64,000 nt of DNA from NCBI RefSeq assembly GCF_000092245.1, contig NC_014166.1, positions 2,294,001 through 2,358,000 on the forward strand, in the 5' to 3' direction. The notes beneath the pieces were generated by a model. That model was not told where the DNA came from and searched no databases. It saw only the letters and a list, made by a program, of their open reading frames with translations. The stretch comes from Arcobacter nitrofigilis DSM 7299 (GTDB lineage: Bacteria; Campylobacterota; Campylobacteria; Campylobacterales; Arcobacteraceae). Within the stretch, counting starts at the first letter, position 1. Every line of letters starts with the position of its first letter. Made by a program: the position numbers and the translations under genes. This document shows positions 62,204-64,000 of the stretch, piece by piece.

Positions 62204-63277
62204 ATGAATAGTTTTGGGCAGAAATTTAGATTTTCAACATTTGGAGAAAGTCATGGAAATGCATTAGGTTGTATTGTTGATGGAGTTCCTGCTGGAATAA
62301 AAATTGATGAAAAATTCATACAATCAGAGATGGATAGAAGAAGACCTGGTAAAAATGAATTTGCCACTGCTAGAAAAGAAGGTGATAAAGTAGAAATACT
62401 TTCAGGAGTATTTGAAGGTACAACAACAGGTTCACCTATTGCAATGGTTATATTTAATGAAAACCAAAAAAGTAAAGATTATACAAATATAAAAGATCTT
62501 TTTAGACCAGGACATGCAGACTTTACATATTTCCACAAATATGGAATAAGAGATTATAGAGGTGGAGGAAGAAGTAGTGCAAGGGAAACAGCAGCAAGAG
62601 TTGCAGCTGGATCAATAGCAAAACTTCTTTTAGCAGAAGTTGGTGTTGAAATAAGAAGTGGAATATATGCAATTGATGGAGTTGAAGCTTCAAGTTTTGA
62701 TTTTGATTATGCGAAATCTTCTGATATTTATTCACTTGATAAAAATAAAGAAGAGTTTCAAAAAGAAGCAATTTTAGCTGCTAAAAACTCTCATAATAGT
62801 GTGGGTGGAGTAGCCCTTGTAAATGTAAAAAATGCACCAATTGGTTTAGGTGAACCATTATATTATAGATTAGATGCTCAAATAGCAGCTGCTATGATGG
62901 GAATCAATGCAGTTAAAGCTGTAGAAATTGGTGATGGAATTGAGGCTAGTAGAGTAAAAGGTTATGATAACAATGACCAAATAGACAAGAATGGATTTAA
63001 AACAAATCATTCAGGTGGAATTTTAGGTGGGATATCAAATGGTGATGATATCAATGTAAAAGTATACTTCAAAGCAACTCCATCTGTATTTATAAAACAA
63101 GCTAGTATTGATATCCATAATAATGAAGTATCATGTGAGCTAAAAGGAAGACATGATCCTTGTGTTGCTGTTAGAGGTTCAATTGTTGCTGAATCGATGA
63201 TGTCAATAGTTATTGCTGATATGTTACTTTTAAACATGAGTAGTAACATAAATAGTATAAAAAAAGTTTACAGTTAA
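62204..63277 (+). CDS. aroC: Chorismate synthase
   Basis: The last step of the shikimate pathway, needing reduced FMN; the product feeds aromatic amino acids, including the presumed starter for the pigment made by the ammonia-lyase. GQKFRFSTFGESHGNALGCIVDGVPAG (about 5-31, with the catalytic His), RPGKNEFATARKEGDKVEILSGVFEGTTTGSP and DYRGGGRSSARETAARVAAGSIAK (about 118-141) are signatures. The C-terminal HDPCVAVRGSIVAESM holds the second His/Asp. Length 357 is normal. A strong terminator follows. Confidence 0.97.
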   Translation: MNSFGQKFRFSTFGESHGNALGCIVDGVPAGIKIDEKFIQSEMDRRRPGKNEFATARKEGDKVEILSGVFEGTTTGSPIAMVIFNENQKSKDYTNIKDLFRPGHADFTYFHKYGIRDYRGGGRSSARETAARVAAGSIAKLLLAEVGVEIRSGIYAIDGVEASSFDFDYAKSSDIYSLDKNKEEFQKEAILAAKNSHNSVGGVALVNVKNAPIGLGEPLYYRLDAQIAAAMMGINAVKAVEIGDGIEASRVKGYDNNDQIDKNGFKTNHSGGILGGISNGDDINVKVYFKATPSVFIKQASIDIHNNEVSCELKGRHDPCVAVRGSIVAESMMSIVIADMLLLNMSSNINSIKKVYS

Positions 63278-63342
63278 AAGATATCAAAGCAAAGATTATG
63301 TATTATTTATGTGATCTTTACTTTGGTTAAGTTGAAAGATCG

Positions 63343-63369
63343 AAGCTGGATTATTCCAGCTTTTTTTTT
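63343..63369 (+). terminator. Terminator after aroC
   Basis: AAGCTGGA / TCCAGCTT makes a perfect 8-bp stem with a TTAT loop, followed by a run of nine T in total. It lies 65 bases after the aroC stop. A textbook Rho-independent terminator. Confidence 0.93.
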
Positions 63370-63400
63370 GATTTATTTTTATTGATTTTAATTTAAAAAA

Positions 63401-63452
63401 TTTTGTAAAAACCGAAAAAATTATAATATTTATTAAAATGGTTTTTACAAAA
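63401..63452 (-). terminator. Terminator-like inverted repeat of the candidate small RNA
   Basis: TTTTGTAAAAACC (63,401-63,413) and GGTTTTTACAAAA (63,440-63,452) are exact reverse complements. On the - strand, the stem is followed at once by six T (63,395-63,400). The stem is AT-rich, so strength is uncertain. Confidence 0.55.
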
Positions 63453-63484
63453 TGAAGGGGCGCTTATTAGACTTATTCCTCGAA

Positions 63485-63493
63485 GGGGGGGGG
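63485..63493. repeat. G9 homopolymer tract
   Basis: There are nine consecutive G (nine C on the - strand) in strongly AT-rich DNA. Poly-G tracts of this length slip at high rate in Campylobacter and Helicobacter and cause phase variation. Here it falls in the loop of a predicted RNA hairpin, not in an evident gene. Confidence 0.9.
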
Positions 63494-63609
63494 AAGAGAA
63501 TAAGAATAATAATGTATGTTTTAAGTTAGATTTCAAATAGATAACAAAGGAGTAAAAGATTTTAAATACTGTAAAAATATTTAGATAAATTTTACTTTCT
63601 AACGTTAAT

Positions 63610-63654
63610 GAACATATGACAAGAATTATAACAGCATTTTGAACATATGTCAAG
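63610..63654. promoter_or_regulatory. Paired repeat GAACATATG[A/T]CAAG, candidate operator
   Basis: Two 14-base copies differing at one base lie at 63,610-63,623 and 63,641-63,654. Their starts are 31 bases apart, about three helical turns, so they sit on one face of the DNA. One overlaps the -35 box and the other the predicted start of the - strand promoter. They also lie 40-85 bases upstream of the DUF134 gene, whose product has a helix-turn-helix. Binding by that protein is a guess. Confidence 0.45.
63625..63653 (-). promoter_or_regulatory. Consensus sigma-70 promoter reading leftwards
   Basis: On the - strand, TTGACA (63,648-63,653) and TATAAT (63,625-63,630) are both perfect and 17 bases apart, equal in quality to the rRNA promoter of this window. 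Transcription would start near 63,618. No convincing protein gene lies downstream on this strand, which points to an RNA product. Confidence 0.7.
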
Positions 63655-63692
63655 TATATTATGGTAGAATGTTAAATAAATTAAGGTAATCA

Positions 63693-64000
63693 ATGGCAAG
63701 AGACAAATTAAAACGGAAATTAGAACTTGTACCAGTATGTAAATACTTTGGTCCAAAAGATATTGAAGCAAAAGAAGACATCGTATTATTGCATGAAGAA
63801 CTAGAAGCTATACACTTAATGGATTCATTTTGTATGTACCAAGAAGATGCTGCGAAGAAGATGAATGTATCAAGAGCAACCTTTGCAAGAATTGTAAAAA
63901 GTGCCAGAAAAAAAATCTCCCTAGCCCTAGTTACAGGAAGTAATATTAAAGTTCATGAAATAAATAATGAGTTCCATTTAGCTGTTTGTTCTAATTCAAA
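63693..64000 (+). CDS. DUF134-family DNA-binding protein, cut by the window end
   Basis: The start ATG at 63,693 follows AAGG and the frame stays open to the end of the window (about 102 codons seen). The sequence MARDKLKRKLELVPVCKYF, the segment FGPKDIEAKEDIVLLHEELE and YQEDAAKKMNVSRATFARIV, a sigma-70 region 4-like helix-turn-helix, match the DUF134 family. Members are about 90-150 residues, often next to NifX/NifB-like or Mrp ATPase genes. The function is not established; DNA binding is likely from the helix-turn-helix. It is divergent from the candidate small RNA. The 3' end is missing here because the window ends. Confidence 0.8.
   Translation, partial: MARDKLKRKLELVPVCKYFGPKDIEAKEDIVLLHEELEAIHLMDSFCMYQEDAAKKMNVSRATFARIVKSARKKISLALVTGSNIKVHEINNEFHLAVCSNS

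Follow-up and report, generated by a model that had tools for sequence, protein, structure and literature searches.

The aroC-DUF134 gap and its promoter

The window (the whole stretch of DNA analysed, 64,000 nt) comes from the type strain CI (DSM 7299) of Arcobacter nitrofigilis, a root-associated bacterium that fixes nitrogen; the published genome size of the strain is 3,192,235 bp (PMC3035288). The genome used here is a single contig of 3,192,235 bp, and near the end of the window it contains a gap of 415 nt, without a convincing gene, between aroC and the gene for a DUF134 protein. We name aroC by recognition of its sequence. The features of the region are as follows:

62204..63277, plus strand: aroC (chorismate synthase, as we read it), ORF of 357 aa, convergent neighbour
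63342..63363, plus strand: aroC terminator, 9-bp stem with T tail
63394..63618, minus strand: predicted noncoding RNA of ~225 nt, ends placed from promoter and terminal hairpin
63400..63453, minus strand: domain III, terminal hairpin AUUUUGUAAAAACC-N26-GGUUUUUACAAAAU, followed by T5-6 at 63394-63399
63454..63463, minus strand: GCGCCCCUUC, unpaired, nearly invariant in Arcobacter
63464..63512, minus strand: domain II, hairpin with C-rich loop (predicted fold)
63485..63493, minus strand: C9 tract (G9 on the plus strand), in the loop of domain II
63513..63616, minus strand: domain I, closed by pairing of 5' UAUGUU with AACAUA
63543..63552, minus strand: CUCCUUUGUU, complementary to AAAGGAG, invariant in three species
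63609..63622, minus strand: operator copy 2, TTGTCATATGTTCA, covering the transcription start and forming the RNA 5' end
63625..63653, minus strand: promoter TTGACA-17-TATAAT, 12/12 match with 17-nt spacing, conserved
63639..63653, minus strand: operator copy 1, TTGACATATGTTCAA, overlapping the -35 hexamer, kept in all genera with the locus
63665..63670, plus strand: TAGAAT, probable -10 of the DUF134 gene, judged by sequence
from 63693, past the window end at 64000, plus strand: DUF134 regulator gene, whole gene 196 aa

An earlier note on this DNA had placed in the gap a candidate small RNA with a perfect TTGACA-17-TATAAT promoter, and the promoter is indeed there, matching at 12/12 positions on the minus strand (63653..63625). 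A promoter scan of the region was expected to give about eight weak sites by chance, and all other sites in the region reached at most 9/12. The sole ORF of at least 60 aa that spans the gap is an 86-aa frame on the minus strand whose TTG start lies inside the promoter; we rejected it as a small protein because the frame is broken in a sister species (69 aa, with another C-terminus).

The -35 hexamer doubles as part of operator copy TTGACATATGTTCAA, and TTGTCATATGTTCA lies just past the -10 hexamer. A neighbouring pair of such sites with at most one mismatch occurs in the A. nitrofigilis genome only at this locus. Relatives carry the same operator pair, 30-31 bp apart, around the same -10 and divergent from a DUF134 gene. 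The results show that a tandem, CATATG-centred operator is conserved across Arcobacteraceae, with DUF134 always divergent from its promoter. In relatives, the operator promoter stands upstream of DUF4492-cydA (the cydA behind DUF4492 being our assignment by sequence recognition) or, in five genera, of a noncoding RNA, with or without a NifX-like gene after it. The DUF134/DUF4492-cydA loci of other Arcobacteraceae thus share the operator and promoter layout, divergent from DUF134 (PF02001), but the promoter of those loci serves protein genes directly, whereas in A. nitrofigilis it precedes a predicted noncoding RNA. Partly on the basis of named database records with identical or matching loci, we take the genera handled here as g1, g13 and g19 to be Arcobacter (strict sense), Malaciobacter and Halarcobacter, respectively.

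The DUF134 protein matches the Pfam PF02001 profile at 57.8 bits (cut-off 27), and DUF134 was found in 11 of the 20 genera of Arcobacteraceae. Operator sites over the -35 and over the start form a layout that suggests repression, and copy 1 would also fall in the -35 region of the DUF134 gene. DUF134 is a probable repressor of both the RNA and its own gene, its association with the operator being one of co-location across genera. The C-terminal half of DUF134 proteins looks NifX-like by eye, and such a half would suit metal-cluster or redox sensing. The papers that our search for DUF134 returned apparently do not deal with regulation.

Several variants of this arrangement occur in relatives. 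A second DUF134 class (L136-L146, L005, L007, L012, L016) diverges from DUF4492 plus a cydA-like gene with the same operator, and Malaciobacter genomes hold both classes. In genus g9 (L014, L057, L059) the operator promoter is accompanied by an extra downstream CATATGTTCA copy and a NifX-like gene, and the RNA is absent. In L046 (G113) and L066, Malaciobacter halophilus, the inter-operator stretch including the -10 is missing and one TTGACATATG is left, with the RNA body kept; either the promoter has been lost in nature or the assembly has a gap here. The locus of G001, a sister species of A. nitrofigilis, is rearranged: an MFS transporter gene (L002:183-1361), not aroC, adjoins the RNA, which is 96% identical, and the RNA and DUF134 stayed together.

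Structure of the predicted RNA and its conservation

The predicted transcript (63618-63394) has a folding energy of -35.3 kcal/mol vs. -19.8 +/- 3.3 kcal/mol for dinucleotide shuffles (z -4.8; 0/200). Its 5' end derives from the operator and, in the predicted folds, pairs with a segment farther downstream, closing domain I in Arcobacter, Halarcobacter and Malaciobacter, and within domain I CUCCUUUGUU is predicted to be mostly unpaired save for its first two bases. In domain II the tract is presented as the earlier note had described, in an exposed hairpin loop (UUC9UUC) in which C9 is unpaired with a predicted probability of ~1.0. In domain III the hairpin and T6 of that description were found, with a stem of 14 bp instead of 13 bp. 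The stem is A+T-rich, with mostly A-U pairs, and the loop is 26 nt, which by the usual rules makes a weak terminator; how strongly it would terminate is uncertain. Searched against Rfam, the window gives only rRNA and tRNA at the gathering score, and neither this locus nor the related loci match at E<=1.

Conservation of this structure in relatives was assessed genus by genus. In an alignment of 16 Halarcobacter loci, four helices are paired in 98.7% of cells, and seven pairs are changed on both sides, vs. 0-1 in slid controls; the pyrimidine-rich loop TTGTCTTTTCCCTAGTCATTAC-TTTTTTTCACTC hardly varies. In Malaciobacter, the C/U-rich segments CCCGCTCTCTC and ACACTCCTCTCTTGG are invariant save for one terminal indel. 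The terminal hairpin, as TTTTGTAAAAAC-N~25-GTTTTTACAAAA, is present at the locus in 3/3 Arcobacter, in 6/6 Malaciobacter and in g10, and in g15 it is exact in G032 and carries two-sided changes in G016. Among 12 sequences from these four genera, 4 of the 14 hairpin pairs show two-sided changes; among the three Arcobacter species, no pair of the RNA does. Conserved RNA structure is thus evident from covariation in Halarcobacter and from covariation of hairpin III across four genera. In some relatives the hairpin has no clean T run, and its A/T-rich loop of ~25 nt (63400-63453 in A. nitrofigilis) is nearly constant across genera, which is unusual in a terminator. Elsewhere in Arcobacteraceae the hairpin pattern is sporadic; one Malaciobacter genome has a second, unrelated site.

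A Malaciobacter profile matches the window sequence at 23.4 bits (1000 shuffles at most 2.7 bits; 0/1000 as good), and the same profile without the terminal hairpin does not detect it. Between genera, homology of the RNA body is undetectable apart from hairpin III and the body is unalignable, so that Halarcobacter is placed in the RNA family by its locus, operator, promoter and layout. Within Arcobacter, the RNA body is 96% and 84% identical between species, whereas fourfold codon sites reach 73% and 63%, and the aroC-side spacer is conserved to a similar degree as the RNA body (86%). Promoter, operators, noncoding body, structure and terminal hairpin are all conserved, and the candidate small RNA of the earlier note gains support, of a comparative kind, from the promoter, the locus, the structure and the conservation of the terminal hairpin across genera. 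We conclude that a structured, repressor-linked and previously unlisted RNA at this locus is likely real.

The C tract and candidate targets

The A. nitrofigilis genome contains three G/C runs of at least 8 nt: the C9 analysed here, a C11 and a C8. With one genome compared per species, A. nitrofigilis has C9, G001 has C10 and G002 has C5; the stem is formed in each of these species. Apparent homopolymer length can also stem from sequencing error. The homopolymer is absent in other genera, where the loops are mixed C/U, and within Arcobacter CUCCUUUGUU and GCGCCCCUU, both largely unpaired, are better conserved than the C tract.

In Helicobacter pylori, the sRNA RepG (HPnc5490) uses a C/U-rich terminator loop to pair with a variable G-repeat in a target mRNA leader, and a published search that included Arcobacter found no homologue outside Helicobacter (PMC8295292). 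The two RNAs are alike in coming from Campylobacterota and in presenting a C/U-rich loop, with pairing to a purine-rich leader shown for RepG and proposed for A. nitrofigilis. They differ in that the variable G-repeat of the RepG system lies in the target, whereas the A. nitrofigilis tract lies inside the RNA, in an internal hairpin, and in that the targeting loop of RepG is its terminator loop, whereas the terminal-hairpin loop of A. nitrofigilis is A/U-rich. RepG-like action of the C9 loop would lead one to expect G-runs in leaders. Among G6+ runs at most 30 nt upstream of an ATG in A. nitrofigilis, all lie inside long ORFs save the antisense of the tract itself, so that the search gave no mRNA-leader match. 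The RepG-like, phase-variable targeting that the earlier note had proposed is therefore unsupported.

The motif AACAAAGGAG precedes the ATG of five A. nitrofigilis genes. One of them, which we take from its sequence to encode a putative acetate kinase, shares the site with G001, and the gene for a TAXI-type transporter protein has the site in all three Arcobacter species. Because AACAAAGGAG resembles an ordinary ribosome-binding site, these leaders are a weak lead, and pairing with them is suggestive only.

Proposed function of the RNA

Our preferred reading, which we hold with moderate confidence, is that the locus encodes a trans-acting, minus-strand sRNA of ~225 nt, controlled by DUF134, whose C/U-rich segments repress translation of target mRNAs at Shine-Dalgarno regions. 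For this reading we infer transcription of the RNA, its repression by DUF134, a ligand and targets. DUF134 would bind both CATATG-centred sites flanking the -10 and so block RNA polymerase, at its own promoter too, and would leave the operator when a metal or redox ligand is lost from, or gained by, its NifX-like C-terminal domain. The RNA, when free, would then fold into three domains with the C/U-rich CCUUUGUU, the C9 loop and GCGCCCCUUC exposed, and these segments would pair with Shine-Dalgarno regions of target mRNAs, repressing translation. In this best explanation, C9 would be a lineage-specific, slippage-prone extension of one C/U loop with its stem intact.

On a different reading, the main role of the region is that of a regulated leader, similar to an attenuator or riboswitch, at the 5' end of the NifX-like gene, whose product gives a Nitro_FeMo-Co match below the curated cut-off; Arcobacter and g15 would carry remnants after loss of that gene. 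The arrangement in Malaciobacter, Halarcobacter and g10 accords with it, since the RNA there sits between the promoter and the NifX-like gene, with the start codon within tens of bases of the RNA in Malaciobacter and Halarcobacter and with no clear terminator between the two in Halarcobacter. However, 3/3 Arcobacter and 2/2 tested g15 genomes lack the NifX-like gene in a search that finds the Halarcobacter and Malaciobacter copies, and Arcobacter and g15 nevertheless retain promoter, operators and terminal hairpin; moreover, the RNA body evolves more slowly than fourfold sites, and g9 has the NifX-like gene without the RNA. We therefore consider a leader unlikely as the main role, and, with the RNA kept without the NifX-like gene in two genera, we think it probable that this RNA acts in trans as an sRNA and is not a leader only. 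The preference for trans action draws on the loss of the NifX-like gene, on the rearrangement in G001 and on the conservation of the body beyond that of fourfold sites.

It is doubtful that slippage of C9 alters the targeting loop and hence the target set or strength, the idea being that replication slippage in the poly-C targeting loop of a repressor-controlled sRNA makes cells differ in how strongly or how broadly that sRNA pairs with ribosome-binding sites. The location of the tract in a loop whose stem persists across C9, C10 and C5, and the great rarity of such tracts in the genome, speak for it; the failure to find G-run leaders (G6+, at most 30 nt upstream of an ATG), the mixed C/U loops of genera without the homopolymer, and the better conservation of other C/U segments speak against it. 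Variation of the tract within a strain is possible, and if the idea is true, the slippery-loop sRNA would be a contingency locus inside a regulator, not in a promoter or a target. We give least weight to the view that operator and promoter alone matter and that the rest is spacer or acts at the level of DNA (hairpin III, for instance, as a palindrome bound by a protein), with any transcript incidental. Such a view would fit the divergence of the RNA body between genera and the nearly constant spacing of the hairpin III arms, odd for a terminator; it is very improbable given that the Halarcobacter domains covary, that loop sequences are invariant and that hairpin III occurs at the locus and hardly elsewhere, unlike the site of a regulator. 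As a genome-wide regulator site, hairpin III was rejected on the same ground, being confined to this locus in RNA-bearing genera.

The preferred reading, a DUF134-controlled sRNA, has partial parallels. NikS (HPnc4160/IsoB) of H. pylori is repressed by NikR, and a variable T stretch upstream of its -10 alters its expression (PMC8322730). Both are homopolymer-associated sRNAs with a promoter-bound repressor, a putative one in A. nitrofigilis, but in NikS the repeat lies upstream of the -10 and the regulator is NikR, whereas in A. nitrofigilis the repeat lies in the RNA and the regulator would be DUF134. The same review notes H. pylori sRNA candidates with internal repeats (PMC8322730), so that there is some precedent for sRNAs with repeats within them. 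Staphylococcus aureus RNAIII (PMC2837412) likewise has unpaired C-rich loops complementary to ribosome-binding sites; the likeness of such anti-Shine-Dalgarno RNAs to the A. nitrofigilis RNA is one of loop features, not of sequence relation. The main text of the noncoding-RNA survey of Arcobacter sp. L does not mention A. nitrofigilis.

If confirmed, the RNA would be a structured noncoding RNA without an Rfam match, found in no fewer than five Arcobacteraceae genera and linked with DUF134, a transcription factor family scarcely mentioned in the literature searched. In sister genera this operator controls a cydA-like oxidase operon, and for that reason the RNA would be a first point of entry to the signal sensed by DUF134, as well as to regulation by RNA in a species of Campylobacterota that fixes nitrogen.

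The two other long tracts of the genome, C11 (L085, 2128775-2128785) and C8 (L089, 2130813-2130820), were rejected as poly-G targets, being intergenic with the C's on the strand of the flanking genes. The two spacers that contain them resemble each other and adjoin paralogous genes for membrane proteins, ~2 kb apart; both tracts are possible slippage sites.
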